A DNA stretch of 64,000 nucleotides, from assembly GCA_027625915.1 (NCBI GenBank), contig JANTQA010000021.1, positions 3,534,001 to 3,598,000 of the forward strand, read 5' to 3'. A model generated the notes under the pieces. It was given only the letters and a program-made list of their open reading frames with translations, searched no databases and was not told the origin of the DNA. The translations under genes were made by a program, and so were the position numbers. Positions 8,504 through 61,285 of this stretch are shown here, in pieces (the stretch's first letter is position 1; each line of letters begins with the position of its first letter). The stretch is from Anaeramoeba flamelloides. Its lineage: Eukaryota > Metamonada > Anaeramoebidae.

Positions 8504-11500
8504 ATGATGAATTATTTAATAATTTGTATTTTTTTAAGTTTGTTCTTATGTGCTTTTGGAACAGACTATTATATTTCATCTTCTGAAGGAGACGATTCCA
8601 ATAATGGGCTAAGTGCTTCAACACCATGGGAAACATTAGATAAGGTGAATTCGATTCTGGAATCATCATCTGGTAACACCTTTTCTTTTAAAAGAGGAGA
8701 TAAATGGAGAGGGCAATTGAGAGTATTAAAATCGAACAACAATATCCAGGCATATGGGCAATTAGAAGATCCTCTTCCTCTTGTAAAAGGTTCGCTTCCA
8801 GTTACGGGATGGGATCAGCATAATGATAACAAGAAGGATAATATCTGGGTTGCCAAACAACCAGATTGTCCATCAGATCTCGAATCTGGTGATTGTGGTG
8901 ACATCAAATTAATTTTTAGAAATAACGAAAAACTTACTAAAGCAAGGTTCGATCTTTCTTTTGTGATCAAATTCTGTTCATACGCAAAGAGAATACTTTT
9001 TTTTCTTTTGGAAATAAAAAAAAAACAATTGGAAAATCGAAAAATTTTATTTTTTTTGATACGATCCCAATTTTGAGCTTGAACACAAAAAAATAATCTC
9101 AATAACTCCAACAAATTCTTCTTGTTTTCGGTTTGTTTCACACTACCAGTATTTGAAATTGAAAAGAGATAAAATTTTTTACTGATTGTTTTTTCTCAAT
9201 TCTTGAAAATATTCTTTTCAATGAGGTTTTTTTGTTCACACATGTAGCATATAAAAAGTGCAAAAACAACAAATAGAGATCACATTTTTCAATCAATGTC
9301 TTCAAAATCTATTTGTAAAATAAAAATCGGAAAATTGAAACAAAGCCAAAATTTTTTCCCATTTCTTCGACAATTAACGATATTATTTTTGATTAAAAAG
9401 TTAAAGTAAAAAAAAGAAATTAAGAGCTATCAGCCCCATTCTTGATATCAACAAAAGAACACTTTAAAGCCAAAGAAATACTGTTCCTGACTTTAAAGAA
9501 ATAAAACAAAAAATTGTTTGAATATTTTACCCCCTCATTCTTCAAATGATTTTATATTCCATTTCCTTACTTTAACATTTTTTGTCTATTTTATTTTTCC
9601 GATTTTAAATTTAAGGACTATCTCCATTTTAACATCTTTTTAGGGTTTTAAATTAAACTAAGATGTTTTAATTTCGTTTTGTAATTGTGATGTAGCCGAA
9701 AACAAAACAAATAAAATTTTTGAATTTTTTTTTTGATTTAAAAAAAACTATTAAAATTTCTTTTCAATTCTTTTTTGAAGGGGATCCAAAACTTAAGTGG
9801 TGGGTGCCAAAAATAAAATAGGTTTTATTTCCCTCAAAAATTGTTGACCAATTTTAAGATAAAGTGACAGCTCATTAACAGCACTTTTCAATCGTGATTA
9901 GCACCTCGAACCATTTTCAGAGCAATATGTCGTAAATAAAGTAAGGTCAATTTTCAGAAAAAAGTTGAATAAAATCTTGGAAATCAAAAAAGAAGACTTG
10001 TTTTTTTATTTTTTGAGAAAAAAATTTTTCAGTTTCAATTTATTCTTATTCATACGAATTTTAGAAAAATTTTTGAAATCAGGAAAGAAAAGAAAAAAAC
10101 TCCAATCATCTTAGATTTCGGTCAACCTCAAAGTTGATTAGAGTTTTTTTTTTTGTTAGAAGATTTTGGTGGTGTAAAAAAACTTGTTTGGAGCATTAAG
10201 GTACACTCAAAAATGAAAGGAATTGATTACAAACAATCCCTAATAAAACAATTTTTTTTAACATCTATATGTCTTAATATAGAGGGACAATATTTTTTTT
10301 AAAGAATTTGTTTTATAGAATATAGACAGCTAAATTTGATTAGAATATTGTTAAAAATAACCCCCAATTCACTATTTGAGTTCGACAAACCCCCATAATC
10401 TTTTACTTAAAATCAAAAAAAAAATAAAAATATTTTCAACATTTTCTTATTTTGTAGTTACTAAAATCAAAATTATTACAAGATCTGTTAAATAAGGGTG
10501 TGTGTTTGCTGGTTTTTCTTCCAAAATTCGAATAAATAACGAAAACCATTTTATTTCTTTGTAAAAATTGAAATTTCATTTAAAATTTTTTTCTTGAAAA
10601 AATACAACTCCTGTTTTTTTGTACTGAGTGGAAAACACCCCACCTAAACAAAAAAATTTTAAAACCAAAATTGAAATTAAACTATTCTTTCTATGTGTTG
10701 AGAAAATAAATTGCTATTTTTTGTTCTTTTCTTCAACCAAAAAAAGATAAAATATAATTACTACCAAACATTCAAGCTACAAACACTTTTAATCCTGATG
10801 TTTATTTGTAATTTTTGAAATCCATTTTGTAATAAATAATCTCAAAAAGTAAATCCCATGAATGAAAATGAGTACCAAATCCCCGATTTCTATTATGGAT
10901 TTAATTTTTGAATGAAAAATTTCACTTCAAAAAAAGCAATTAAACACGATTTTACAGTCTTATTCTAAACTAAATAACGTTTTATCAATTAGAATTCGAA
11001 ATTGAAATAGTAGTTTTCCTAAAAAATTATTCCAAAAAAATAAAATACCTTCTTATTTTTCAAACAATTGTAGTATTTCAAGACATTTAGTTTTTTATTA
11101 CAAATCTATTTTGTATCAATCTCTTATGATCATAAAACCGAGTATCTAAACTTTTTTAACCATTTTAAATTCAAATTTCAATAAGTAACTCTTCAATCAA
11201 TACCAAATTAATAGATTTTCAATTCTATGTTTTCAATAAGCAAAAAATGTTTCAGTTTTTTATCATTGAATTTTTTTCTTTATTAGTTTATTGAACAACA
11301 ATTCCCATTCAATTTTTAATAATAATATAAGAGTCAATATTATTTTTGGTACCAATTACAGGAAATTAGAAAAAATAAAAAATACCGAAATTGTAGCGAA
11401 AGGCATATAACATTTTTATAACAGAATTCCCTTTTATGTGATGATTGTTTTCATATTTTTTGAAAAAAATATTCTTATAAAATTTTTATAAAATGTTATA

Positions 11501-14990: not shown

Positions 14991-17900
14991 AGGTATTTCC
15001 AAAAAAGTGGGGTATTTTTTTTTTTACAATTCATACAAAACCTTGTTTGTTAGTGGAGCTATTCGTAAACTCGTAACACCAAATTAAGTTAAATATTAAT
15101 ACTGATTGAATCAGCATTTATGGTATTTATTTCGATATATATATAATCAAAATATTTCGGAAAAATGAAAAAAAAAATGTACTTTTTTTTTTTTAGTGAA
15201 ATCAATTTAAGAACAATTTCAATAAAAAAATGAAAATATCGAAAAGATACAAATTATTTTTTAAATGATCAAATACATTTTATAAGTTTAAAATTCTATT
15301 TGTAAATTTTTTTCAGATAAAAAAATCATTAAAACGATTTTTATTCTTAAAAATAAAATAATAACCAATTTTCACCCTTGTAAAAATATCAGATAAAAAA
15401 GAGATCATAAAATTTTATATCTTTTATTTATGTGATGTCATACTTATAAACAAATTGAGTTATTATTATAAATCAATAAATGATTTTTAATAATTTAATA
15501 TAATTTAATATAATTTAATAGTTTAATGGGGATTTGGGTTTAATCAATATATTTAAAAAAAGGTTTGCCACACTTTTTTGGAAATAGCTTAGATATTAAC
15601 TTCTCTATAACGGGGAATATGATATAATTAATATTAAAAAAAAATTCAAACAACTTCATGCGGTTTTTTAATTACATCAAATTATTTTTTAATAAAGAAA
15701 TTTTGAGATTTTTGTGTAAAATTTTCAAGAATAACAAGAATCACCGAATTACAGAAACCAAAAAAACATAGAAATGTGAAAAAAAAAAATTGTTGTTCAT
15801 ATTGGAATTTAATGTTAAAAAAAGAAGGATAAATATAAAAAAAAGAAAAAAGAATTAACTTGGGTATCATTCTTTTTTTTACCCTTTTAAATTTTTTAAT
15901 AATCTAAAAATTATTGAAGAAGGTTTCAATTTTGATTAATATTTGTAAGTTCAATTGATTGTAAGATTTCTCATCAAGTATTAATTATGCAGTTAATAAA
16001 CACAATAAAACTGATTTGAAAGATCAATATTTAAAATTTTTTCAGAAGTCAAAAAAAATCAAAGCAAAAACAAAAAAGAAAAAAATAATTTAATCGAGTT
16101 ATTTAATGATGGTTTGTTAAGTCATGATTAGAGAGCTAAAAATCGATATTTTTTTAAGGAACTTTTTATTTGATAACCAAATCTGAAAAGGATTAATGTG
16201 AAGTCAAAAACCTTAAAAATATTATTTGAATAAATATTTAATCAAGTCTCAAGATTGTTTCAGAGAGTAGATACAATTTTACAATTTTGAAAAATTTAAA
16301 TTGAGAGAACCTTGCTAAAAAAAGATTTTTTTAAGTGTCATGCGATATTGAAACTTTGAAAAAAAAACACCATTCAGTACTCTATTAGAGAAAAGAAAAC
16401 GAAGTAAAGTAAATTAGGGTTGAATCTTTAATTTTTTATAATACATTTTTTATTAAATTTTTAGTTTTTATGAAATTATGTTTTGGATATAGAAATATGT
16501 TTATGTGAGTGCTTGAAATGTTTCAGAGAGCAAACTAAAAAAAGAGACAAAAAGGTGGGTATTTGGAAAAAATATTTTCTTTTAGAAGACCAAAACATGA
16601 AAGATCACCTTTCCAGCTAAACTTTTTTTAAATCAAAAAAGAAAAAAAAAAAACAACCAAATTATATTTTAAAAGAAATTTCTTCTTTATCTTCTTAATT
16701 TGAATGAAAAAAAAAGTAAATTATCTAGAATTTCTAGTCCAATTCTTATTTATTACTTATTTAACAAAACATTTTTTTTACAAATTTGTTTTCAAAATTC
16801 TTTTTTCAAATATTTTTAATCAAAATAAACCAAAATCAAGAATATTATTTAAAAAATTAAAGTAAAAGGATTGAATACTCAAAATCCAAAAAACCAGTTA
16901 GAAAAGATTCAAATCAAGATAAAAGAAAATATGTTGAGAAAAAAGTAAAAATTCCTGATTATTTTGACTTTCAATTTGAACGAAAATAAATAATTATAAA
17001 ATCAAATTAAAACCAAACCAATAAATTTATTTTTCTGAAGAGATATTTAAAAAATATCCTATTTTCTTTAACATGATTAAAATTAGATGAATTAACTGAA
17101 TTATATTCAGTTATAAAAATTCCTTTTGGGAAATTCTTTCGAAATAACAACTAATTGAGTTCTCAAAAAATAATTTATCAATTGAAAGTTTGAACAATGG
17201 AGAATTAAAAATAAAACCAAATTAAGAATAAGTAATTGTATCAAATTTTACAGATAAGATCAAGAAATAAATGTTTTTTTTTCATTTTTTCTTAATCGAT
17301 TTTTTCATTATGTTGATTTTCATTTTTTACTTGATATGTAGGTAAATATATCACAGTAGGATATATCCCACCCTCCTATTCATTAAAAAATTAATGTATT
17401 TGGTTAAGGAAATGATTTTAAAAATTCAGTTTCTCAGAAACTAAGATACTCAAAATTGGTAAAATGTTCCAACCTGTAAAGTATCAAAGTTAAGGAAAAA
17501 TACATAAATTTATCAACAAAACTTAAAAAATTAAAAAATCATTTTTTAAGCTAGTGTATACACAGAGTACTGTTTCTCATTGTTCTCTTTAATTGAAATA
17601 AAATAAATAAATCAAAAAATGAAGTAATATTTATATTCGTTTTTCCCAGTTAAACTCTATTTTGTTAGAGAGCTTTTCCCACATTTCGAAAAACAAAATT
17701 TATAATTATTTCTGAAGTTTTATTTAATAGATACCTTAAAAGGGCTGAAAAAGTAACAATTAACATATCTCTTTCTTATTTATGAATTATATACTTTTAC
17801 CTTTTTTTTTTTTTTTTTTTTCTTATTAAAAGGGTATTTTATTGACAATTCTTATTATGCGCTTGATTATGAAAATGAGTATTTTTATGACGATGAGGAT

Positions 17901-19898
17901 CAAAAAATATATTTATATAGCAAAACTGACCCAAACGAAGATTTAATTGAAGCGGTTTATTACCCAACTGGGATCTACACTGAATGGGAAAGGAGCAATA
18001 TTAACATTGATCATATTGAGCTGCAGCATTATTGGGAAAATGGTATGTATATAAATAAATTAACAAATGGGATCATTAGCGATAATAAGCTGAGCAAAAT
18101 ATTAACATGGGGAATAAAAGTCCATGATGCATATGATATACTTATCGAAAATAATGAATTAGAAAATATTTATGACACCCCGATTGATTATGGTACAACG
18201 ACTGCTGATCATGATTGTGGCAATTCCTATATCAGGGGAAACACTATCACAGATTCAGCACTTGAATGTGGGATTGGAAAGATCTCGCAGGGGATAGGCA
18301 TCAAAATATGGGGTAATGGTATGATTGTTGAGCAAAATCGAATACAAAACTGTGGATCTAATGGTATTATGGTTGGTTATGGGAACTTTAACACTATACG
18401 TGAAAACTATATTAATAATACATGTCTGTGCTTCAATGATTGTGGTTGTATGTATATACATACACCTTCCTTAATTGAGAATAATCATTTAATAAACCCC
18501 CGGGGCGAAATGGAGGCATCGGGTATGTATGATTCTTATGTGATGAGCGGCGACCGAGAAGAAAGACAGATTGGCCGTGGAAGAATTGCAGTCGAGGATG
18601 GAGAGAATATGAAATGGTTACATAAAATTCTATTTGGGTTTTATTTGGATACAGCAGCCACAGATATTGAAATAAAAAATAATTACATTGAAAATTGCTT
18701 TGTTGCTGGACTGAATAGTCTGGATGGGGACAGTAATAAAATAGAAGGAAACATTTTTTATAACAACGGCCTAAGTATGGAATTACTTCTTTCTAACGGG
18801 AAGTCAAGTGCCTCAAATACAATCACAAACAATATCTTTTTTAGCACGTCAAAGAGTCAACGGGCACTCCGTTTACCCTCAGAGGACAAATCCTTTGGGA
18901 ACTTTCAAAGCAATAAATATATTAACCCACTAACTTACTTACATATTGATTTGGAATATAGTGACGACTATTCAATCACTTTGTATCAAAGGTATAAAAA
19001 ATCTGATTTCGATACGAGTGGGTCAACAAATAGTTATCATGACTATATCCAATGGTACTTTGAGAACCAAAAAAACATAAAAACCTGGACACTTGATTCT
19101 GAATCGCAAGTTAAGCTATGGATAACCGATAGTAACGAAGCTTCGTTAAGCTATGATGATCAAACGATGAGTGGCGGATCGATGAAGGTTGCAATAACAA
19201 ACACCCCCTCGGCGGATAACACTATATGGACACAGCCACTGGAAAAGGTTAGTCTGAACACTGACAAACCCTATCACATCCAATTTACAGCGCAAAGCGA
19301 AGACGAATTTGTCCTTGAGTTGTTTGTCATAGACGCCACCACAGACACATACGATAAGGCCGTTTTGTATGAATACGCCATACTCGATCAAGATGAGCGA
19401 ACCTTTCATTTTGTGTTTGACACACTTTTAGATGAAACAGTGACACAGGCCTATTTGCAGTTACGAACCACAGACTATACCACACCCACAAATTTTTGGC
19501 TAAAGGATTTTAAAATAGAACAGGCAGATATCCATATATATGATCTAAATGATGTATACCCTCTGAAATGCAATGACCAAAATACACAATCAACAATTGA
19601 TTTGAATGCAGACACTTATATGGATGTTGATGGTAATAATGTAGGTACCTCACTCACTCTCGAGCCTTACACTTGCCAACTCTTGATTTTAAAAGACTAT
19701 ACCCAAGCTAATACAAACCCTAGAACAAGAGATTCTGAGCCAAGCTGGCACAGTTGGAAACCAGATACAAAATGCTCACAAGACAACAGTGACGACAATG
19801 ATGATGATACCGTTTCAAGTGCCTTTGCTATCCAAATAATCCAATTAAATACTTTAATATTGTCTTTTATAATATTTTTATCACAATTCTTATTTTAA
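8504..19898 (+). CDS. Secreted right-handed beta-helix protein, four exons
   Basis: Exons: 8504-8946, 14242-14387, 14532-14610, 17833-19898. Exon 1 gives a signal peptide (MMNYLIICIFLSLFLCAFG) and the start of a pectate-lyase-like fold (DYYISSSEGDD, NNGLSASTPWETL). Exon 2 continues with PNEKYYRIDTATDL. Exon 4 (687 codons) holds GYFIDNSYYALDYENE, then N-x-I-x-x-N beta-helix rungs (NNELENIYDTPIDYG; ENRI-type turns), then a jelly-roll region like carbohydrate-binding modules (about codons 330-570), a Ser/Asp-rich linker and a hydrophobic C terminus suggesting a GPI or membrane anchor. The family is mainly bacterial and acts on polysaccharides; substrate unknown. Splice phases agree for exons 1 to 3, but exon 3 does not join exon 4 in frame with the canonical sites: exon 3 shifts from MESVMGE towards NYIQAG, so an indel, a sequencing error or gene decay is possible. 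Exon 4 is visibly richer in G/C than its surroundings. Confidence 0.78.
10560..10990 (-). repeat. Segment shared with 55127-55560
   Basis: Reverse complement of this stretch matches 55127-55560 over more than 400 bp with gaps, e.g. AACGTTATTTAGTTTAG, AAATCCATAATAGAAATCG, TTTGGTACTCATTTTCATT, GAATGTTTGGTAGTA. It is an internal part of the 3-kb element, so 55.1-55.6 kb is probably a fragment of a relative. Confidence 0.7.
11568..11812. mobile_element. 245-bp TTAA-ended foldback MITE
   Basis: Left end TTAAAGCCCTAGTACCAG then TATAAAAGCAAAAAATG; the right end is its inverse (CATTTTTTGCTTTTATACTGGGAATAGGGCTTTAA). The inverted repeats are about 45 bp. It lies inside the 3-kb element, so it is the younger insertion of the two. 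Confidence 0.8.
11859..12044. mobile_element. Roughly 185-bp TTAA MITE, copy 1 (worn)
   Basis: Left end TTAAGGAACTAATCTCT; right end TAGAGACTAGCCCCATAAGG. The body matches the reverse complement of 39319-39500, including ATTTTCAATATTAAGCATA-like and AAAATTTTTTGTCAATTAC-like words. Nested in the 3-kb element. Confidence 0.75.
12658..14241. other. Rest of intron 1 of the beta-helix gene
   Basis: A/T-rich DNA. Frames at 12900 and 13126 are Phe/Ile/Lys-rich noise. A 24-bp poly-A run lies at about 14040-14063. The acceptor AAAAAG at 14241 precedes AGAACCCAACG. Confidence 0.5.
14939..14990. repeat. (TA)n microsatellite
   Basis: About 50 bp of TATATA with a few interruptions, ending exactly where the mariner-like MITE begins. 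A shorter TA run is at about 14479-14495. Both lie in introns of the beta-helix gene. Confidence 0.85.
14991..15589. mobile_element. 599-bp Tc1/mariner-like MITE with TA duplication
   Basis: Left end AGGTATTTCCAAAAAAGTGG preceded by TA; right end CACTTTTTTGGAAATAGCT followed by TA. The terminal words resemble the CCAAAAGT core typical of mariner-type ends. No transposase frame, so non-autonomous. Lies in intron 3 of the beta-helix gene. Confidence 0.8.
15592..17832. other. Rest of intron 3 of the beta-helix gene
   Basis: No coding signal. Part at about 17340-17450 resembles 640-750. A T-run leads to the acceptor TTAAAAG at 17832, directly before GGTATTTTATTGAC of exon 4. Confidence 0.5.
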
Positions 19899-20356
19899 AA
19901 ATAGCTCTTTTCGATGAATTACAGTTAATTTAACAATTAAAATAAAAAAAAAAAAAAAAAAAAAAAAAAGCCTTATTTTTTTATTATCTTTATCGAGAGA
20001 AATGAGTAATTAAAAAAAAATTTATCAAAAAAAAAAAAAAGTAGAAGAAGAAAAATAATTAAAATATAATAATATAAAAAATATTATATCATTTAGATAG
20101 CCAAATTAAAAATTATCCACTGTCTTTAGGCTTTTTTGATTATAAGTAATAAAAAGGTATTTTCCTGAATTCTCTTTGAATCTTGGAAAAATGCTATTAG
20201 TTTTTCTTGAGTTTGAAATTTATATCATTTTCTTGTAATTTTGGGAGACCAATAATTTGTATGTATTTTTTTTACATGATATGAATCTGTCTATCTTCGT
20301 TTATGATTTAAATCCGGCTATTTTCTTTATTATTGATTGGAAAAAAAGGAGTAAAT
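19899..20356. other. 3' flank of the beta-helix gene
   Basis: Probable 3' UTR with a 24-bp poly-A run at about 19946-19969. Nothing else recognised. Confidence 0.45.
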
Positions 20357-21560
20357 TTAGGTACTAGTAAACCAAAAAAAATCTTATATTAAATTTAATA
20401 ACAAATTCAAAAAAAATTTACATCATCTTGAAATTGAAAAATGAAGTAAAAATCTAATTACTATACCTACCAAAATTACTTTTTAATGCTATTTTCCAAA
20501 ATGAATTATTGTTTTTAAAAGTTTTGATCCATTTTTCTCTCATTTTTGAAAAGTTCAAAATTCAAACATATTTCTTGAAATTATTTGAAAAAAAATTATT
20601 TTCGTTGAATAAGAAAGAAATCTTATGGTCTCTTAAGGTAGTTTACAAAAACATACTTTTGAATTGATACAAATAAGTTTTGGAAAATACCTCATTATAA
20701 AAAATCTACTTGTTTTCAAAAAAAATTATAATAATTATTTTAAACTCAAAAAAATATAATTTTTTTGATTAAAAGAAAGATTAAATCATTTTATCAAATT
20801 TATTGAATTAACATAATATGATAAAGTAGAAATAAGCCATTGGATCAAAAAATCCAAAATACTTTTCAAAACCTGGAAAATTTAACTTCTACTCCGAAAT
20901 AAATACTTTTTAATTCAGTTATTTATAATCAATAATTAATAACCTGATTTTAATTCTTTCAGTGATTGGGTAACAACACATAGATTAAATTTATAAATAG
21001 AATTTACAATTAGTTCTCAACTTTTAAATATTTCCAAACAAATAAAACGAATTCAAATAAATAAGTCTAATAAAAAAAATAATATTCGGAAATATCTGAT
21101 TTTAATTATCCTAGTTCCTTGTGTATACCTAGATATTGAAAAAAAAATGAATTGTCCAATCTTTTAAATTTCAAGTAAATTTATGAATACTTGTTGAATA
21201 AAAAAATAATCATTTTTTTTTAGATCTTGAAGAATTCAATATTTGATTTATTTTGTTTTTTTTAAAAAAAGATAAAAGTTCCAAATTCATTTGATCATAA
21301 AAATTCTCAAAAATTACTTGAGGTGAGATTTCATTAAAATCAAAATGTTTGTAAAATTCTTCTTTTGTTACATTAATTTGAAATAATCCAAATCAAACGG
21401 GTGAAATTTTTTAAAATATAAATACCATTGAGAAAAAAGAATTTCTTTTTTAAAAAGTAGAAATCATTTCTTTACAATCTTCAAATTGTTTTTTTTTTTT
21501 TTAATCTAGTTTAATTGCTTTTAGAATTAAAAGGTACCTTTTCAAGATAAGTGCTTTATT
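20357..21560 (-). mobile_element. 1.2-kb TTAA element, copy IV (reverse, old)
   Basis: Reverse complement of the elements at 22461-24877. Its left edge GGTACTAGTAAACCAAAAAAAATC is the inverse of their right end, and internal blocks match (e.g. AATAATTAATAACCTGATTTTAA; ATTATTGTTTTTAAAAG then TTTGATCC). The right boundary is worn and only approximate. Confidence 0.6.
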
Positions 21561-22460: not shown

Positions 22461-23664
22461 GTGAATAGAAACTGCTATTAAGTTTTTTTCCCCAAAGGTA
22501 ATAGAGACATTAATTACGCAAGGCTACAATTAAACCAGATATGTAAATTCATTTATCAACTTGAAGAGAGATGAGTTTACATTTTTAAAACAATTTCTTT
22601 TCCTAATTGAAAATTTCATTGAAAAGATGTGATCAATTTTTATGTTTGGATTTTTGGATCAATTTTAAAAAAAAAAATTTTAGCAAAAATTTTTATTTGG
22701 ATGAAATCTCACTTTTAGTAATTTCTGAGAATTTGTATTATCAAATAAATTTGGAACTTTTATCTTTTTTTAAAAAAAACAAGAAAAATAAAATATTGAA
22801 TTCTTGAAGATCAGAAAAAAATGGATCTCGAATTTATCTACAAATATTAATTAAATTTCTTGAAATTTAAGAGATTAAGCAATATTCTTTTTCAAATATC
22901 TAGATTACAAACGAGAAAGTATCATTATTAAAATCAGTTATTTGATAATATCTATTATTATTTTTTATTAGAATTATTTATTTGAATTTATTTTAAAAAT
23001 TGAGAACTAATTGTAAAGGCTATTTGATACAATTAATCTTTGGGTTGTTAATAATCCATCGAAAAAATTAAAATCAGGTTATTAATTATTAATTATAAAT
23101 AATCAAATTAAAAAGTATTTCATTGGATTATAAGTTGAATTTTACAGGTATTAAAAAAGTATTTTGGTGTATTTTTTAATTTAATTATTTGGTTTTTTAT
23201 CTCGTATTTTTTTAATTCAATAAACAGAAAAAATTGATTTGGACTGTTCTTAGAATCGAAAGATTATTTTAATTACAAGTTTAAAATAATTATTGTATTT
23301 TTTTTGAAATTAAATAGATTTTTTAAACTGTGTTACACTAGAACTTAGTGGCTTCTATTTTGAAAGTGTATTTTTGTACACTTCCTTTTAGACAATTCAA
23401 TTTCTTTCATCTTTGAAAGAAAATAAGTTTTTTTCAATAATTTCAGGAAATATAATTGAATTTTGGACTGTGAAAAAATAAAAAAAAAATGGCAGAAAAC
23501 TTCAAAAAACAAAAATTCATCTTCGAAAAAAGAATCTAAACCAAAGGTTTTTTTGTAGAAAACAGATTTTACTTCACTTTTCAATTTCAAGACAAGGTAA
23601 TTGTTTTTTGAATTTGCTATTAAATTTAATATAAGAATTTTTTTTTCGTTTTCATGTCCCTTAA
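22461..23664 (+). mobile_element. 1.2-kb TTAA element, copy I
   Basis: Collinear with copy II next door from CCAAAGGTAATAGAG through GTGTATTTTTGTACACTTCC to the right end TCATGTCCCTTAA. The left end is worn. Its right TTAA is the same four bases as the left TTAA of copy II. No transposase frame; the minus-strand ORF at 23345-23590 is low-complexity and absent from the other copies. Confidence 0.75.
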
Positions 23665-24877
23665 GGGACTATTAACCCTTATTTTTTTTTTTTCCAAAGG
23701 TAATAGAGTAATTATTTACATAAGGATACAATTAAACCCAATAAGAAACTTTGTTTGTCAACTTTAGAGAAATGGATAATCATTTTTAAAAGATTTCATT
23801 TTTCCAAATGGAATTTTCAGTTAAAAGATCTGATCCTTTTTTGTTGGTTTTTTGATCAAATTAGAAAAATAAAAATATGCAAAAAAATTTAATTTTGTAG
23901 AAATATGGGTTTTAGTAATTTCTGAGAGTCATTATGAGCAAGTAAAGGTGTGTCTTTAATATTATTTTAAAAATACATCAAAAATAAATCAAATATTGTA
24001 TCCATTGAAGATCTAAAAAATTTGAACATTTATTTTATCCACAAATATTTATGAAATTTCTTGAAATTTAAAAGACTTGTCAATATACTTTTATAAATAT
24101 CAAGAGTATAAAAAAGGAACTGTTTGTATTAAAATCAGGTATTTGATAATATCTATTATTTTTTTTATTATTAGATATATGCATTTGAATTGTTTTATTT
24201 GTTGTAAAATCTTGAAAAAAATTGAGAAATAAATGTAAACCCTATTTGATAAATTTAATCATTGGGTTGTTAATGACTTACTGAAATAATTAAGATTGGG
24301 TTTATAATTATTAATTATAAATAATCAAATTAAAAAGTATTTCTTGAGATAATAAGTTGAATTTTCCAGGTTTTAAAAAAGTATTTCGGGAGAATTTTTA
24401 ATTTGATTCTTTGGTTCTTTTTCTCAGATTTTTTCATTAAATCCCTAGAAAAAATAGATTTGGTCTGTTCTTTGAATCAAAAAATTATATTTTTTACAAG
24501 TTTAAAATAATTATTGTATTTTTTTTTGAGATTAAGTATATTTTTTAAACTTGGCTATTTTAGAACTTAGTGGTCTCATTTTTAAAGTGTATTTTTGTAC
24601 ACTTCCTTTCCAGGCAATAAGATTTCAATCTTCTTTCAAATAAAATATTTTTTTTTAATAATTCAGAAATATTGGATTTTGAACTTTTTAAAAATGAGAA
24701 AAATGGATCAGTCTTTTAAAAACAATAATTCATTTCTGAAAATAGTATTAAAAGTAAGCTCTGTTTTGTAGTTATCATATTTTTACTTAGTTTTTCAATT
24801 TCAAGATGAGGTAAAATTTTTTTTAAATTTGTTTGTAAATTTACTTGAAGATTTTTTTTAGTTTACTAGTCCCTTAA
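23661..24877 (+). mobile_element. 1.2-kb TTAA element, copy II
   Basis: Starts TTAAGGGACTATTAACCC and ends TTTACTAGTCCCTTAA, giving short inverted repeats of about 15 bp. 1,217 bp without coding capacity. Best-kept copy, and the reference for copies I, III and IV. Confidence 0.82.
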
Positions 24878-25239: not shown

Positions 25240-26187
25240 ATGGAATACGTTGGCTTAAGAAACCATGGTGGAACTGGTTATTTAAATTCAATTTTTCAAC
25301 AGTTATTTATGGAAAAGGAATTCCGCGAAACAATTCTTAATTTTACCTTTAGCAAACAAAAAGAACAACTAAATGAAAATGAATTGGTCTTGTACGAACT
25401 CAAAAATATTTTCCATATTTTGGCTAAAAAACAAGTTGAATTTACAGAAACACTTGAGTTTTGTAAAGTGTTTAAAGACTGGGAGGGAAACCCAATCAAC
25501 CCAAGGGCTGTTATGGATTGCAGCGAATTCATGAGCATGCTCTTTGATAAGCTTGATTCTGCAAGCAAGGGGATTATCAAAAATCTATTTGGTGGTACCA
25601 TTTCTCACCAAATCGTTTGTCGAGAAGGAAACCATATCAATGAAAGAGAAGAGTCCTTCTTTTCAATTAGTTTAGATGTTCGTGGTCAAACATCTTTCTT
25701 GGGATCATTCAGCAAGTTTTGTGAAACCGAAATGTTAGAAGGAGAAAATCAATATTATTGTGACTCTTGTGGAAAGAAAGTTGACGCAACGAAGAGGCAA
25801 ATAATTAAGAAAATGCCAAAAAATTTGATCGTCCATTTAAAAAGATACGATTTCGATTACAACACATTCCAAAGAATTAAATTGAATTCTTATTTTGAAT
25901 TCCCACTTGAAACGAACCTCAAAAAATTCACTTTACAAAATGAAAATCAAAACCAAAACGAAAATTTAAACTTCACCCTTCATGGGATTATTGTTCACAA
26001 GGGCACTGTAAATGCTGGGCAAAATTATTCAATAATTAATACAAAAGAAAAATGGATAAAATTTGATGACAAAAAGATTTCCGAATATAGCACGGCTGAT
26101 ATCGATCAAGATTTTTATGGTGGCTTAGATAAGAATAATAAAGAAAAAATGCAGTCTGCTTATATTTTATTCTATAAAAAGAATTAG
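25240..26187 (+). CDS. USP-family (peptidase C19) pseudo-deubiquitinase
   Basis: A single-exon 315-residue catalytic domain closest in wording to the USP9X/USP24/USP34 group. The Cys box reads YVGLRNHGGTGYLNSIFQQL, where active family members have T-C-Y: the nucleophile at residue 13 is Gly. The DxxEF block is present (DCSEFMSMLFDKL, 93-105), as is REESFFSISLDV (137-146 region). The fingers keep one CxxC (174-177), but the other pair is C127-x-x-G130. PKNLIVHLKRYDFD and RIKLNSYFEFP (193-222) are family hallmarks. In the His box the usual GHYYS is GQNYS (Gln 261); WIKFDD (272-277) keeps the third-residue Asp. Active-site Cys and His are therefore both gone while the frame and fold motifs are intact, which suggests a ubiquitin-binding pseudoenzyme rather than a decayed gene. 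Cytosolic or nuclear; regulation unknown. Confidence 0.9.
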   Translation: MEYVGLRNHGGTGYLNSIFQQLFMEKEFRETILNFTFSKQKEQLNENELVLYELKNIFHILAKKQVEFTETLEFCKVFKDWEGNPINPRAVMDCSEFMSMLFDKLDSASKGIIKNLFGGTISHQIVCREGNHINEREESFFSISLDVRGQTSFLGSFSKFCETEMLEGENQYYCDSCGKKVDATKRQIIKKMPKNLIVHLKRYDFDYNTFQRIKLNSYFEFPLETNLKKFTLQNENQNQNENLNFTLHGIIVHKGTVNAGQNYSIINTKEKWIKFDDKKISEYSTADIDQDFYGGLDKNNKEKMQSAYILFYKKN

Positions 26188-44035: not shown

Positions 44036-44693
44036 AGCCAGGGGAAAAATGGAAAAAAAATAAAAAAAATAATTATTATAATTATTTTTTGAGATCTCTA
44101 TGGGATATTTAGATTTGGGAATATTTGCCGATCTGGTTATTATCAAATAATTAAAAAGTATTCTATAAATATAATCTGAAAATAAAAAGTGAAAGGGTTT
44201 AGTCTTATATCTCAAAAAATCATCTCCTATATAAAAATTAAATAAATTTCTCCAAATTTAAATTTTTTTTTTTAAAGCATATTTTCTCTGAAAATTTAAT
44301 CGTTGATATTACAAAATTAAAGTTTTTACATTTTTTTTTTTAAAATTTTTTAGGGAATCTAGGAACTTAAGAGAACCTATATAATTTTTAATAAAATATT
44401 ACCCATTTCAATTTCAGTGATTTTTATGGTGTTGCTACTCCCTTAAGGCATTTTTTAAAGTATAAAATCTTAGGTGAGATCAAAAAAATGAAGTTTTATA
44501 TTTTTGGATGTAAAATTCAATTTCCAATTTTAATTTTGAATTTTGTCCTCAGAATTTTTTTCCCAAATAACACAAATAGTTATCAAAACCATTTAAAGTT
44601 TCCATTTTGCTTTTTGAGACTATGGTATATTTGAAAACAGCCATCTTCTTGAAAAAATGGTCAATTTATTTCAAAAAAAAATTTCAATAAACA
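44036..44693. other. A/T-rich DNA left of a LINE
   Basis: A CCCTTAAGG word at 44449-44457 looks like one TTAA-type transposon end, but no partner was found. Nothing else recognised. Confidence 0.4.
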
Positions 44694-44709
44694 AAATTCC
44701 TAGATTTTT

Positions 44710-45614
44710 TTAAAAAAGTAAAAGCAAATTTTAAAAAAATCAAGATGATTTTTAGCCAACAACAATTAGCCAATGGAGTAAAATTACAAATGTTTAAATC
44801 GATATGTATTAGCCAATTATTTTATGGATTAGTTATTTTCAATCTAACCCAAAATGATTTCAACTCGATAGATGTTTGGATAAATAAAAAAGTAACAAAA
44901 TTTTTAAAAATTAATCCACATTCCCCAAGAATAATTTATAAAACCGAGGCAAAAATAGACCAAGTAAGAATTTCGATATATAAAAGAAGATTTAAACTCA
45001 AAAATAAATTAGAAATACTTGGTTTCGAACAAATATCAAAAAATTTAAAATTTTCCAAAAAAGACAACGAAAATATTAATTGGAAAGCGGAAAATCTAAA
45101 ATTGCTAAATGCGAATCTTAACCAATTTAGAGAAAATTTAATAATAAATAGCACTGGGTGGAAAGGCCAGGAATATTTAAAAATTATTAGATACAATAAC
45201 AATATAAACAAACAACAAAAATATTTAAAATGGAAGGGCTCAACTTCCATCTTAAAACTAAGAAATTTCACAAATTATCTAAATAGATATTCTTATGTTT
45301 ATGATAAGAATAAAACAAAAACAAAATCTTGCAACTTATGCAAAAAATATAAAAACCTAGATACAGATGAAGATATCGATATTTTTTTTATGGGACTGCC
45401 CATTCTATAAAGAAAATCGAATAATTTGGATTAAAGATTTAATTCAAATTAACAAAAATAATAAGAATAATATTTTTGATATTATTCGAAATAAAGACTC
45501 ATTGTTTATTTTATCATTAGTTAATGATAAAGAAAATTATGATTCTTTATTGAGATTTCTAAACAAAAATTTAGAAATTAGGGCTGTAAGAGGAAATTGA
45601 TTTCCTCCCTTCAA

Positions 45615-45731: not shown

Positions 45732-47261
45732 TTGATTTTTTTCTTCTTTTCAATTTGTCTTTTTATCAAAAAAACAAAGCTCTTAAAAAATAATAAACCC
45801 ACAAAAAAGGATATTAAAAAAGAAAATTTCAAAGTACTTCTAACGAAAAATACAGAGATTTATGAAACAAGAAAAAGAAAAGGAGAAGATCTGATAATAG
45901 CTTGTTCACAAGATGGCGAAATAATTGCAATAGATCCACAAAGTGGAAAAAAAGTCAAAGAATTTGTTGGCTTTGGAAATGGAGTTTATCAAACTGTTGA
46001 TTATCAAAACACAATTTATGGCTTTGGAGGTTCAAATGAAATTGTTTGTTGGGATTTTGAAACAACCAAAATAATAACAAGAATACCAACCCAAGAACTA
46101 GTGTTTTGTGGCCACCTGGAAGAAGAGTCTGGAAAAATCTTTGTCGGATCAGAAACAGGAAATATTCTTGTGCTTGATCCTGAAAGAAATAAAATAATCA
46201 AAGAATTTAAATCACATTCTTCTTTTGTCGAGCAAATTGATAGCCTAGATGGGATTGTTTATACCTCGGGTATGGGCCTAAATGAAAGGATCAAAAGTTG
46301 GGATTCCAAAACTTATCGACAACTTAAAACTTATGAAGGGTATGCACAAGGAACGTCTGGTATCAGAATTAAATGGAATTATCTTATAACTTTAGGGATG
46401 AATGAAAATAATAATAACCAAATCAAGGTCTGGGATCTTGAAACAACAGAATTATTATATTTTGCAAATTTTACTAAACATTTATGTTATTCCTTTACTA
46501 TAAGTGAAAATTTTATTTATGTAACAAATACATCTGGTTTAATTACCATTGATGTTGAAAGCCAATTAGAGAACTATTCTTGCTCAAATTTCAATTTTCT
46601 CAAATTTTTAAAGAACCCAAAATTTAGTGACCTTGAAATCTTTGATTATCCTGTCCACAAATTCCTTGTGAAGTCGAGGTGTTTGAAAGAAGCATCAGAA
46701 ATCAAAACCATTTTAGAAAATAACTTTTCAAAACAAGAAACTTTCAAATTTTTGGAATGGGTTTATGGCAAAGAATTTAATTCTTTTTCATCAATGAATG
46801 AGATCCAAAAAATATTTGACAAATTAGAAATCCATGAATTGAAAACCAAAACATTACAATCTGATTTAATCAATTCATATTCAGATGAAAATTCCAAAGA
46901 CTTTTCAATAATTGTTAAAGATCAAGATAATAACGATGAGGATGAGGAAAAGGTTGGATATGAAGAAGAAATCAAAGTTCACAAATTCATTTTATTTACC
47001 AAATGTGGATTATTTCAAGATTTTTTTGAAAATTTCGCAAAAGAAACTAACAAAGTTCAAGATTATTCAGGAAAATCCATTGAGTCAATCGAACACTTCA
47101 TCAAATATCTTTATTTTAATGAGTTGAAACTGACAGGGGATGATGACCCACAATTAATTTATGAAGAACTTTTTGATGCTGTTGATTACTACCAATTAGA
47201 AAAGCCCTATAACTTGCCAAATTGCTTGAAAAAAATTAAAAAACAATACAATTTAAATTGA
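45732..47261 (+). CDS. WD40-like propeller / tandem BTB protein
   Basis: 509 codons from the first ATG. An acceptor at 45779 would trim the Phe-rich first 16 and join the exon at 39861. Residues 50-275 are WD/PQQ-like blades (LIIACSQDGEIIAIDPQSGK; GKIFVGSETGNILVLDP; NQIKVWDLETTELLYF). Residues 296-346 are a short first BTB (FSDLEIFDYPVHKFLVKSR ... FKFLEWVYGKEF). Residues 389-490 are a second BTB (KDFSIIVKDQD, acidic loop, EIKVHKFILFTKCGLFQDFF, SIEHFIKYLYFNEL). The C-terminal half is closely paralogous to the gene at 50756-58414. BTB proteins of this shape usually dimerise and can act as CUL3 ubiquitin-ligase adaptors; the target is unknown. The start codon is uncertain because a LINE tail lies 75 bp upstream. 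Confidence 0.85.
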   Translation: MIFFFFSICLFIKKTKLLKNNKPTKKDIKKENFKVLLTKNTEIYETRKRKGEDLIIACSQDGEIIAIDPQSGKKVKEFVGFGNGVYQTVDYQNTIYGFGGSNEIVCWDFETTKIITRIPTQELVFCGHLEEESGKIFVGSETGNILVLDPERNKIIKEFKSHSSFVEQIDSLDGIVYTSGMGLNERIKSWDSKTYRQLKTYEGYAQGTSGIRIKWNYLITLGMNENNNNQIKVWDLETTELLYFANFTKHLCYSFTISENFIYVTNTSGLITIDVESQLENYSCSNFNFLKFLKNPKFSDLEIFDYPVHKFLVKSRCLKEASEIKTILENNFSKQETFKFLEWVYGKEFNSFSSMNEIQKIFDKLEIHELKTKTLQSDLINSYSDENSKDFSIIVKDQDNNDEDEEKVGYEEEIKVHKFILFTKCGLFQDFFENFAKETNKVQDYSGKSIESIEHFIKYLYFNELKLTGDDDPQLIYEELFDAVDYYQLEKPYNLPNCLKKIKKQYNLN

Positions 47262-50755: not shown

Positions 50756-53700
50756 TTACTTGAGGTTATATTGATCTTTAATTTTAAATAGTTCGTATTT
50801 GAGAGTAGAATTCTCATTTAATTGGTAGTATTCTATGGAATCATTTAATTCCTCAACGATTAATTCGGGGTCATGATCAGCAGTTAATTCAATTGAACCA
50901 GTATAAAAAAATTTGATCAATATTTCTAAACTTTCAATTGTTTTACCTGAAAAATCCTTTACGGAATTAGATTCTTCATTAACATTTTGAAACATGTCTC
51001 TAAATAATCCACTTCTGGCATATAAAACAAACTTGTGAACTGGGATTTCTTCGAAATATTCTTCTTCTTCCTCTTCTCCCGTTTCGTTATAATTATCATC
51101 GTCAATTTTGACTAACAAATTGAAATTTTTGGAGTCTTCGTCATTGTATAACTTTAGCAAGTCGTCTCTGAAAGATTTTTCGAGAAAGCCACTTATCTTA
51201 AATTCATTACAAATCTGATTAACAATTCGATAATCTTCAATTATTCCAGAATAAACCCATTTAAAGAAAAAACGAATTTCCTTTTTATTATATTCAGATT
51301 GATATAGCTTTTGTTCAATTTCTTCAATTGGCTTTCCAATTCTGCTTTCAACAAAATATTTGTGGATTTTGAGATTGTAATTCTTTAATGTATAATCACT
51401 AAAATCTCCGGTTTCTAATAAAATTAAAAAATCCATATTTCGAGATTTGTTTTTGTTTGTATCTGGAAAAATGAAAAAGCAATACAAACTGCTTGCTAAA
51501 TCAAAATTTATATTTTGTGGAAGATTTGGATTTTCAAGTTTTGCAACGAGAACATCTGGAAAATTTAGCCCATAAACATCATTTTCCATTGTTAGAATCA
51601 TTGTTTTGGCTGATCCTGAAACAATGTTTTGACATTTTATTTTTTTCAGTTGTGGGATTGGTATAAAATTTTTTGAATTTGCATTTCGCCCATTTGCCCT
51701 TGCGCTACCACAACTCAAAATGGTTCCATTTTTAAATAAGATTATTGAGGCTTGATTTGGACAAGATATACGTTTAATCTCATTCCCTGAAATATTAGGT
51801 ACTACCCGTTTTATAGACTTGCTACTAGTATCGTTTAAACCCAATTGCGAAGCATTATTATACCCTAATCCAATTAATTTGTCATCGTAGGTTGTATAAA
51901 AGTTATGATTTGAATGTGGTGATCCAAATACGTCTGATACATTTTCTGCAATTATTACTGGTTGTTGACGATTCGTCATGTCGCCAGTTACCAATTGCCC
52001 TTTTATTTTTCATTTTTTGGTTATTTTTTTATATTTTATTTAATTTTATTATTATTATAATAATAAATTTTTTATAAATTATTGGAAAATAATTTTAGTT
52101 CAGAAGTAAATTGAGAAATGTTTTTTGGAAAATTTTGATCCCTTTTTTTTTTGAATTTTTTTTTTTTTAGAGCTCATTCGCTTATTTTTCATTTGTGCTT
52201 AATTTTTACTAAAAGTTTTTTTAAATTAAATTTTTTTTTTATTTTTTCGCAAAATTTAATAAATATGGCAGTTTTAATAATAAGTCTTTCGATATAATTT
52301 CATTATTTTTTATTTTTTCTAATTTTCAGTAAATAGAAACCAAAAAAGATAATATTGTCTTGTATGCGAATAATTGAAAATTGAATGGAAATTGTTGTTC
52401 AATAAACTAATCTATAAAAGAAAAAATTACCAAAGATCATGAATTGAAACTAAAATGATTTTTACTTTTTTGTGAAAACATGCTGAAAAATCTAATAATT
52501 TGGAATTGAATGAAGGGTTACTCGTTGAAATTTGAATTGAACAAGGTTAAAAAAGTTTAGGTAATTTATTTTTTTGATCATAAGAGATTTATCAGAAATA
52601 GATTGGTAATAAAAAAGGAAATGGATTGAAATACTACAATTTTTCAAAAGACTTTGAGATTTATTTTTTTTGGAAATGATTTTTTTTTTTTAATAATTTA
52701 AAACTCAATAAATCAAAGACTATCAAAAATTTTATTAGTGATCATAATACAATTATGAATAAATTTGAAATAAAATCAAATTGGGAAATCAATGATATCT
52801 ATAAAATTAAAGATATTCCAACCTTTCAAGAAGACTTTCTCCAATTCTTTTCTCGACATAATTTTAATTTAAATGAAGAAAATTTTATTTTATTTAAAAA
52901 AAAATATAAACAGTAAGAAAGAATAGTATTTGATATCAAACAAGATAAATTAAAAATTAATAATTTACTTTATAAATTGTTTGATAAAAATGAAACTTTA
53001 CATAAAATCAAAAAAATTAATGAATTAAATTACTTGTAATTACTTAATCAAATAAATGAAGAATATAATAAAAATAAAAACTTTTGGAAAACATTAAATA
53101 AAATAAGAGAAACTTCTACAAAAATGTTTTTAAATAATGAAACCATATTCACAGTGTATAACGATTTTGTAAAATCAATTAGTCAAAAACCTAATACAAA
53201 TATAATTAATTATATTAAAAAATTTAAAATTAATAAAAATTCATTAAATCCAATTGACATAAAGGAAATTTTTGATCAAGATAAAATTAAAGAAATAATC
53301 AAATTTCAAAAAAAATAAATCAGTTAAAGAATTTGACAAAATAAATCATTATAAGTTTATAAAAAACCAACCAATTCAATATTTATTAAATTATAATTAT
53401 TTTATTAAAACAGTTCAAAATATTTTTTTAAATTGGATAACAGACGAAACTGAAAAAAGTATAAATTTTATTAAAAAAAGAAATTTATTATTTATTCATA
53501 AATCGGGGGGATGAAGGCGAACCATTAAATTATCGACCTATCTCTATAAATCAATCTCTTCCAAGATTTTTTTTTAAATTAATATACATTGGAATTCAAG
53601 ACTCATGGGACTTGATTTCAAAAAAAACAATTTGGATTTAAAAAATATTTTGGAACAAGAATTGCTGTTTTAAATTTATTAAGAAAATTTAAAAAAATAA

Positions 53701-56700
53701 AAAATAAAAATAAAAATACAGAATACTTTGTAGTTACTATAGACATACAAAAATGTTTTGACTCTATACAACACTCGTTAATATATCAATCTATTAAAAA
53801 ATTTATAGAAAATGAAACAATTAAAAATTGGCTCTTGAGATATTACAAAAAAGAAGGAATTGGAGTTTATCAAGGAGATCCCTTATCACCAATTCTCTTC
53901 GCATTTATATCTCATTTCCTACTAGAAAAGTTAAAAACTTTAGCTGTTCATGTTCAAATGTATGCAGATGATCTGATTCTTATTATGAAAGGGCCATTAA
54001 TCTCTCTAAAAATTAATTTAGAAAGGATTTTTGAAATAATAAAAAGATTCGGGATCAACCCACATAATAAAAAAACCAAATATAAAAAAGAATTAAAAGA
54101 TATTTTTTATCTTGGGATTTGGTTAGAAAAAAACACACATCTTGAATATAATTTCAAAAAAGTAGAAAAGTCCTTGGAAACACTTAATCGATTGTTTCAA
54201 CAAAATAAAATCAACAATGGAGTCAAAATAACTTCTTTCAAAGCTCTCATTTTAAGTCAACTTTATTATGGTCTTGAAATATTTGACTTGAAACAAAATG
54301 ATTTTGAAAGAATTGATAGATTTATAAATAAATCAGTCACAAATTTCTTACAAATTAATATCCATTCACCTTGGTTAATTTATAAAACTGAAGCAAAAAT
54401 TGATCTCGCTAGATTAAAAGTATACCGAAGAAAATATAAATTGATAGAAAAATTAGATTTCTTAAATTTAAAAAAAATTAAAAAACAATACTAAATTTTC
54501 GAAAATTGGAAAATGAAAATATTAATTGGCACACTAAGGGATTAAAATTATTAGATTTAGAATTAAAAGTTTTTCGATTAACCGAATTGGAAAATTCACC
54601 TAGTTGGAAAGTTCAACAATATCTAAAAAATTATAAAACAACAAAATTGCAATTTCAAAAAAACAAAAAATATTTAAACTGGAAAGCTTCAAAAACAATT
54701 CTAAAATTTCGAAATTTTACTAATTATTTAAATAGGTACTCTTATGTAACAAGTAAAAATAAAAATAAAAATTGTGATTTATGTAAAGAAAAGTTAAATA
54801 TTGATATCATTGAAGATTTCGATCATTTTTTATGGGACTGTCCGGCTTATAAAATAAATCGAAAAATCTGGATATCTGAATTATTTGAAAAAAAAAAAAA
54901 ATTAATAATATCAGAGATATTATTAATAAAAAAGAATTCATCATATATATTATCATTAGTAAGTGATAATAAAATTTGTGATTCTTTAACAAAATTTCTA
55001 AAAAAAAGTTTAGAAATTAGGGCACACAGGAGAAAAGCAATTTTCTCTCTTCAAAAATAAAAAAAAAAAAAAAAAAAAAAAAAAGGAAATGATTTTTTTT
55101 AAAACTACTAAACAATTTCAAATTCTATAGGATAAAACGTTATTTAGTTTAGAGCAATACTGAAAAATAGTGTTTAATTGCATTTTTTGTTAAAAAATTT
55201 TCTTTCAAAAATTAAATCCATAATAGAAATCGGTGATTTGGTACTCATTTTCATTAATGAGATTTACTTTTTGAGATTATTTATTACCAAGTGGGTTTGA
55301 AAATTTACAAATATACATCGGGAAAGAAAACAATTTATAACTTGAATGTTTGGTAGTAGTTCGATTTTATCTTTTTTTGATTGCAAGGAAATAATAAAAA
55401 AGAGAAATTTAATTCCTCAACTCATAGAAAGCTTTGTTTAATTTTAATTTTGGTTTTTAACCTGTTTTGATTTAGGTGGAGTGTGTTCCACTTGGTACAG
55501 AAAAAAAAGGAGTTTTATTTTTTCAAGATTAAAATTCAAATGAAATTTCCAATTTTACTAAAAAAAAAAGTATTTCAATTTTCTAAAACGGAAAATAGTT
55601 GATGTGTGGGTGATTATTTGAAAATTGTGAGAAAAGTAATTTTTAACTTGTAGTGTCAATTATGTCAGGAATTACATATACCTTTTGTGTTTTTATGAAC
55701 TTATATTTGTTACAACTTTTTTTTGAATTGTAAAGTCTTCATTAAGTTAAAGATGTATCTCTTTAGGCTATTTTCTTAAACCCTTTGAATGAAATTTACT
55801 ACAACAACAATAATGTAAATTGAGATCTTTTATTTGTTTTTTCGAATTGGTCACGTTTAAGTTATCAGTATTTTTAAAAAATAAAATGAAAATCTTGTTA
55901 AGATCTGAAAAAAAATTTTTTTAGGAGTTTGTGTTTAGGCTTATGAAATTAATGAGTTAATTTCATCTAAACAATTTATGGATTTGAGACTATTTTTTGA
56001 AATAAAAATTTCACTTGATTTCCAATATAAAACAAAAAAAAAAGCAACCCATTATTTTTATTAACAAATAAGTTAATTCAAGGAAATTATGAATCCTATT
56101 TTTAGTTTATGTTGAAAAGTCTTGATTTCATAGAAATTTTTTATTTGGTTATTCTTGTTCATTAGAATAATATTTCAATTTTAAATCTCAGCAAATATAA
56201 TTTAAAATTGAAGTGCAGATGATTGGATAAGTGAAATTTTGATAGAATTTTAATCAGCATTTATCAATTTAAAATAAGATCTAATAAAAAAAAATTTTTT
56301 TCTTAAAGGTTTTGAAAAAGTTTTTTTCTGGTTTTCAAACAATTGAAAAAAAATATACAAAGAATTTTCAATTTTGAAAAATTTTTTTAACAATTGTTTG
56401 GCATTATTCATATGAATACTTATAACAATTCAAACCATTTTTGTCAGAAAAAAAATAATTTTGAATTTTAGGAATAAAATTAACTAATTTTCAAATATCT
56501 TCAAGAAAATTTTATTTTAAAAAAATTGAATTTCATCTTTGTAACAAAAACAAAATTTCTTAGTAAAATTTTTAAATTACTTTTAAAATTTGATGATTAT
56601 AACTATTCTTCTTTTAAAAAAACAATTATTTTTTAATCTGCTGAATATATCAATTTTTTGGATAGCCAAAAGAATTATCTCAAAAAAGAAAAAAAATCTT

Positions 56701-60410: not shown

Positions 60411-61285
60411 TAAATTGGTTTCCTTCCTTCAAAATAAAAAAAAAAAAAAAAAATTTCTTGAAATTTAAAAGACTTGCCAATAAATTTTTTCAAATATCTA
60501 GAGTAAAAACAAGGAACTGTTTGTATTAAAATCAGGTATTTGATAGTTTCTATTTTTTTTTTTTATTATTAGAAATATTCATTTGAATTCTTTTATTTGT
60601 TGAAAAATCTTTAAAAAATTGAAAAATAATTGTAAAGTCTATTTGATAAATTTAATCATTGGGCTGTTAATGACTTACTGAAATAATTAAGATTAGGTTA
60701 TTAATTACTGATTATAAAAAATCAAATTAAAAAGTATTTCTCTTTAAGATTAAAAGTTAAATTTCCAAGATTTGACAAAAGTATTTCAGGAGAATTTTTA
60801 ATTTATGGTTTGGTTTTTTTTCTCAGATTTTTTCAGTCAATAAAAAATAAAAAATAGATTTGGTCTGTTCTTTGAATCAAAAAATTATATTTTTTACAAG
60901 TTTAAAATAATTATTGTATTTTTTTTTGAGATTAAGTATATTTTTTATTTTCTTAGTTATTTTAGAACTTTGTGGTCTCATTTTTAAAGTGTATTTTTGT
61001 TCACTTCCTTTACGGGCAATAAAATATCAATCTTCTTTCAAAGAAAATAATTTTTTTTTAAATAATCCAGAAATATTATGAATTTTGAACTTTTCAAAAA
61101 TGAGAAAAATGGATCAGACTTTTTAAAAACAATAATTCATTTCTGAAAATAGCATTAAAAGTAAGTTATGTATTGTAGTTTTCAGATTTTTACTTTATTT
61201 TTCAATTTCAAGATACGGTATAATTGTTTTTTAAATTTTTTTGTAAATTTACTTGAAGATTTTTTTTAGTTCACTATTCCCTTAA

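Follow-up and report, generated by a model that had tools for sequence, protein, structure and literature searches.

The locus described here raises the question of whether a ubiquitin-specific protease (USP) domain that has lost both its nucleophile and its general base can be maintained as a protein of its own, and of where such a protein would come from. The gene lies in a window of 64,000 nucleotides of Anaeramoeba flamelloides DNA. Anaeramoeba genomes are described as A+T-rich and as carrying expanded gene families (PMC11550330). In the open-access library searched we found no title on ubiquitin in Anaeramoeba and no paper on a catalytically inactive ubiquitin-specific protease pseudoenzyme in protists. 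Sequence comparison makes it likely that the gene encodes an independently evolved, stand-alone pseudo-USP derived from a giant USP9X/USP34-like enzyme, kept by selection and non-cleaving.

The gene and its surroundings

The gene and the repeat that precedes it are located as follows.

23660..24877, + strand: abundant noncoding repeat, upstream of the USP gene and not part of it (genome search)
25240..26187, + strand: putative stand-alone pseudo-USP gene (whole-length PF00443 match; ungapped relative L031 of the same start and length)

The open reading frame at 25240-26187 consists of 315 codons and a stop. Its product matches the Pfam UCH profile (PF00443) over positions 1-254 of 254 with 156.9 bits (E 9.1e-46; curated cut-off, 23.9 bits), and the complete USP-type domain proposed in the preliminary description is thus covered end to end. 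UCH and UCH_1 were the only Pfam domains in the 315 aa, and NCBIfam gave no match over cut-off. The closest solved proteins by sequence were USP9X (E 6e-47) and USP34 (E 2e-39). This upholds two members of the USP9X/USP24/USP34-like assignment made earlier; the third, USP24, was absent from that search. A single-sequence structure model of the protein (pLDDT 33, pTM 0.18) was given no weight. Relatives of the gene were also sought on viral contigs, where eight stretches fitted a pattern and none was confirmed.

The noncoding repeat is about 1.2 kb long and has further window copies at 22483-23664, 20356-21474 and 60451-61285. Its genome search gave 5884 first-look candidates; 40 were scored and 43 matches listed, the best other copies being 93% identical. 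Elsewhere in the window, a ribosomal protein L2 (uL2/RPL8) gene occupies 1523-2638; an intron of some 420 bases separates its two exons, and exon 1 scores slightly below the Pfam cut-off. The frames at 8504-9073 and 17757-19895, about 8.7 kb apart, may belong as two exons to one gene for a secreted beta-helix protein, with a Pfam match in 17757-19895 only. Two BTB-domain genes with propeller repeats (45732-47258 and 50759-51994; WD40-BTB and RCC1-BTB) have C-terminal parts that look similar by eye. A reverse-transcriptase element carries RVT_1 in 53616-55057; its downstream part is resembled, by eye, by 44691-45407, which has no Pfam match. Scans of the window for tRNA and Rfam families detected nothing.

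The USP family of the host genome

At least 123 matches to PF00443 were found in the 254-Mb assembly (76 contigs); 121 of 302 candidates were scored, which makes the count a lower bound, and a few genes account for two matches each. Among the 123 matches listed, 47 belong to single open frames that exceed 2000 aa. These frames amount to a greatly expanded set of giant USP9X/USP34-like deubiquitinases; in L102, the only one compared, the similarity to USP9X reaches past the catalytic domain. An expansion of this size is unusual; humans have about four such giants.

Searching the genome with the window protein itself gave 141 matches. The sole close full-length match besides the window gene is a gene on contig 34 (L031:4992-5939), which is 63% identical (197 of 315 residues); its frame, also of 315 aa, shares the start of the window gene and aligns to it without gaps. 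Identity drops to 45-50% in the long matches that follow, and is 52% and 62% in two short fragments of some 40-50 aa.

For the catalytic sites, 81 loci and the window yielded 85 frames matching the family profile. At the Cys column, 77 frames have Cys, one has Gly (the window gene), one has Asp (L031) and six are not covered. At the His column there are 78 His, one Gln (the window gene), one Arg (L038) and two Glu, the latter in low-complexity side frames of L032 and L033, with three frames not covered. Twenty further Cys-box stretches, 19 from the PF00443 list and one from the window-protein search, all have Cys (18 by pattern; L082 and L097 by eye). Cys is therefore present in 97 of the 99 copies read, the exceptions being the window gene and L031; genome matches outside these 99 mostly start mid-domain. 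L038 reads TCF at the Cys box and GRY instead of GHY at the His box, and could be a further dead copy. The USP frame of L032 stops before the His box and adjoins a similar copy, L033, with a longer frame.

Loss of catalytic residues in a conserved domain

The sites that bear on catalysis and ubiquitin binding are listed below.

25246..25317, + strand: Cys box (residues 3-26), 50% identical to L031 versus 64% in the rest outside the boxes
25261..25263, + strand: Asn8, the Cys-box Asn, kept (Asn in 78 of the 78 frames covered, of 85)
25276..25278, + strand: Gly13 (GGT) at the catalytic Cys site (Asp, GAT, in L031)
25510..25512, + strand: Val91 replacing the near-invariant switching-loop Gln (Gln in 58 of 59 copies with Cys and His)
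25516..25518, + strand: Asp93, kept (Asp in 76 of 82 frames covered)
25618..25629, + strand: finger CxxG (Cys127, Gly130)
25759..25770, + strand: second finger pair Cys174 and Cys177, kept (Cys in 29 and 28 of 82 frames covered)
26020..26025, + strand: Gln261-Asn262 at the catalytic His-Tyr (Tyr262 in 59 of 59 copies with Cys and His)
26065..26070, + strand: Asp276-Asp277, retained at the sites of the third and fourth catalytic acids (matched to those of USP7 by alignment)

Codon 13 (GGT) encodes Gly where USP9X, USP34 and USP7 have Cys, and codon 261 (CAA) encodes Gln where the same three proteins have His. The replacement of the nucleophile by Gly and of the general base by Gln, as first described, holds against the genome as well, where the two columns carry Cys in 97 of 99 copies and His in 78 of 82 frames covered. 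These counts also speak against an alignment in which the true Cys and His of the family would lie elsewhere. The third loss claimed earlier, that of a finger zinc ligand, does not stand as a functional loss: codon 130 is indeed GGA (Gly), forming CxxG, but only 7 of 82 copies carry a Cys there. Among human proteins, column 130 holds Val in USP7, and the partner Cys position is Ser in USP34.

Beyond the changes in the preliminary description, two more near-invariant residues are replaced, Gln91 by Val and Tyr262 by Asn. The reference set for this comparison was the 59 copies, out of 74 others, with both Cys and His in the merged matrix, a set defined by these residues rather than by activity. 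All 15 copies outside the set have Cys; most are off-register at the His column, with the box in a second aligned piece, and read His when that piece is used, except L038 (Arg). Across 18 positions conserved in at least 97%, the window protein keeps 14 and departs at Cys13, Gln91, His261 and Tyr262, while L031 keeps 17 and departs at Cys13 alone. L031 thus retains His261 (CAC), Tyr262 and Gln91, and it carries Asp at 13, Ala at 130 and Asn276-Asp277. In a leave-one-out count over the 59 copies, 45 showed no departure, 12 showed one and two showed two.

The two switching-loop positions can be read against USP36, in which the counterpart of residue 91, a Gln, makes the substrate channel narrower and that of residue 93, an Asp, engages Arg42 and Gln49 of ubiquitin (PMC10611586). 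The equivalence comes from the common Q-x-D-x-x-E motif and the USP7 alignment, not from an alignment to USP36. Of this USP36-type pair, the window copy would lack the channel-narrowing Gln and keep the ubiquitin-holding Asp.

Selection on the pair

Pairwise maximum likelihood on the window gene and L031 gave an omega of 0.2055 (dS 1.20, dN 0.246; 2dlnL 58.2 against omega = 1), with a 2.5-97.5% range of 0.114-0.289 over 60 codon bootstraps. With equal codon frequencies, omega was 0.348 (dS 0.70, 2dlnL 35.4). The dN/dS is thus far from 1 and indicates that the pair has been maintained, two 315-aa frames being free of gaps and stops between them at a dS of 0.7-1.2. This agrees with the earlier proposal that nucleophile and general base were lost while selection kept the remainder, with the proviso that a pairwise omega averages the periods before and after the loss of Cys. 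A branch model with four Cys-bearing outgroups gave 0.179 for the window branch, 0.170 for L031 and 0.058 for the background, and a single omega for all branches was worse by 2dlnL 12.9; these figures are rough, because the outgroups are saturated and two of the four are misaligned at the His box. Omegas about three times the background suggest that constraint has been partly relaxed. An omega of 1 was rejected more firmly for L031 (2dlnL 8.0) than for the window branch, where the rejection was weak (2dlnL 5.1).

This weak rejection is one reason to consider that the window copy could be a recently dead duplicate, a pseudogene that has not yet acquired stops. Its four departures at near-invariant sites, compared with one in L031, would fit such an origin, and stops do occur in some USP matches of this genome (one of the 123 PF00443 matches and three of the 141 window-protein matches). 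We nevertheless regard a pseudogene as unlikely. The 315 codons are uninterrupted by stop or gap, which by chance would be expected at about 4e-11 at the stop rate of the flanks, and neutral simulations kept the frame open in 3 of 2000 runs at 0.1 substitutions per site and in 0 of 2000 at 0.3. Third-position GC is 0.32 in the frame versus 0.22-0.23 in the flanks. The departures concern catalytic sites, while 26 of the 31 positions conserved in at least 90% are kept, and the upper bootstrap omega of 0.29 is in our judgment too low for a pair in which one of two similar branches had evolved neutrally.

Within the protein, Cys-box identity minus that of the rest was -0.14 for the pair, below every one of 573 other pairs (mean +0.227, lowest -0.011), and 20 other path-disjoint pairs gave +0.08 to +0.40, the opposite sign in 20 of 20. 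Cys-box identity to the family consensus was 0.58 and 0.54 in the two genes, both inside the span of Cys-bearing copies, which reach down to 0.43. A raised omega in the Cys box was not found (0.09 over 24 codons versus 0.21 for the rest); the changes there are mostly conservative, so that the helix appears constrained though the nucleophile is not. We also looked for stronger conservation of the ubiquitin cradle than of the thumb. The palm-minus-thumb difference in identity (+0.10) was ordinary among 20 controls and thus gives no special ubiquitin-cradle signal.

Origin and order of events

A tree (IQ-TREE, LG+G4) was built on window columns only; of the 76 best-covered sequences it took in 57, those more than 30% identical to the window protein. 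It joined the window gene and L031 with UFBoot 100 on a long stem (0.46), and next to the pair it placed, at support values of 84-93, a clade containing the giant USPs L027, L042, L047 and L052. Ranking behind the pair, the four best genome matches come from frames 2266-2880 aa long, and all four have Cys.

Changing GGT to GAT takes one step and TGT to GAT takes two, and the codon model placed Gly (0.845) at site 13 of the pair ancestor ahead of Asp (0.098) and Cys (0.042). By parsimony and by the codon model, loss of the Cys most likely preceded the split of the window gene and L031, and His, Tyr262 and Gln91 were most likely lost later, in the window lineage. Were the Cys instead lost twice and recently, the shared history of the pair would have been mostly that of active enzymes and the omega of 0.21 would say little about the dead state. 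The different residues at site 13 (Gly versus Asp) and the retention of His, Tyr262 and Gln91 in L031 could be taken in this way. We find two recent losses quite improbable, since just 2 of 99 copies read lack the Cys and these two are sisters, one step separates their codons, the ancestor is poorly described by Cys, and Cys-box conservation relative to the rest has already fallen below that of all other pairs.

The gene also appears to stand alone, as first described. In L102, one of the four giant frames that rank behind the pair (2249 aa read, the frame continuing), the similarity to USP9X begins some 70 aa before the catalytic domain. With these 2249 aa, which start roughly 560 residues into the frame, as a tblastn query, no giant flanks were found around the window gene or L031 with a match better than E 3.4. 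At four control loci, the same query at E 1e-3 recovered the downstream part in 4/4 and the upstream part in 3/4 (not L029). That the giant flanks are untraceable suggests that the domain was copied alone, or that its surroundings were lost long ago.

Comparison of the two genes' own flanks gave a score of 29.5 for the upstream 300 bases, equal to the best of 200 shuffles (mean 17.4), and of 33.5 for the downstream 300 bases, no better than shuffles (maximum 36.5). Some upstream kinship of the two genes is thus possible; because the upstream score ties the best shuffle, flank divergence offers no clean contrast. The bases before the window ATG close with a pyrimidine-rich stretch and AG, and the gene may have a short 5' exon. 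The L031 ATG, at the same residue 1, lacks this context. The frame is open upstream of the ATG for 13 codons in the window gene and for five in L031.

Possible function

With the nucleophile missing, canonical catalysis is lost. Whether residues elsewhere have taken over, so that ubiquitin or another substrate would still be cleaved, deserves consideration given the published claims of activity for USP39, in which Asp replaces Cys, and for USP52 (PMC10919355), and the revision of USP53 and USP54 from inactive to active (PMC12037411). L031 has its His and an Asn-Asp pair, and the window protein has six Cys outside the Cys box (75, 94, 127, 161, 174 and 177). Migrated catalysis is very improbable here, as the Cys box contains no Cys at all and the window copy has lost His261 too; moreover, USP53 and USP54 do possess a catalytic Cys and His (PMC12037411).

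Loss of cleavage with retention of the domain is the reading we prefer, and the window protein probably grips ubiquitin without cleaving it. The following course of events would account for the data. The catalytic domain of a giant USP9X/USP34-like protease would have been copied alone, would have lost its Cys, and would then have given rise, by duplication, to the window gene and its relative on contig 34. Purifying selection would have held both as folded, non-cleaving proteins, the fold itself being deduced from sequence. The retained palm and fingers, judging from the domain and Asp93, may bind ubiquitin or a ubiquitin-like protein, and the bound protein might shield ubiquitin marks from the other USPs of the cell, or serve as scaffold or partner of one. 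A more specific proposal, which we put forward only tentatively and consider rather unlikely, is that this lineage, with its more than one hundred USP-domain matches, made a dedicated ubiquitin reader from a giant USP9X-like enzyme, whose catalytic domain was taken out and lost its nucleophile, and that the two-gene family protects ubiquitin marks from a swollen deubiquitinase repertoire. If so, the protected marks may lie, for instance, on symbiont- or phagosome-associated membranes.

It would appear that a pseudo-USP arose here independently, beyond the well-studied examples from animals and yeast. The pair is also graded, L031 having lost the nucleophile only and the window copy the nucleophile, the base and their neighbours, which makes it a natural series for asking why a dead USP domain persists.

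Comparison with known systems

About 13% of deubiquitinases are considered inactive, and the residual activity of pseudo-USPs is debated (PMC10919355). The best comparison by residue is USP39/Sad1. USP39 is described as spliceosomal, with an N-terminal zinc-finger domain and a USP domain without catalytic Cys and His (PMC10919355); its Asp in place of Cys is found in L031 as well. However, the 315 aa of the window protein comprise the USP domain only, and its relatives are USP9X/USP34-like. The USP domains of USP50 (PMC10867860) and of USP52/PAN2 (PMC10919355) are held to be inactive, like that of the window gene, in what are different proteins. USP53 and USP54, once filed as pseudoenzymes, are reported to be active on K63-linked chains (PMC12037411), and differ from the window protein in having the catalytic Cys and His that it has lost. 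The giants USP9X and USP34 are its nearest relatives by sequence, and its best in-genome matches after L031 are giant frames too. In USP9X, USP24 and USP34 the catalytic domain is embedded in large N- and C-terminal regions, whereas here it forms the entire gene; and the four best-matching giants of this genome keep their Cys, whereas the window gene has neither Cys nor His.
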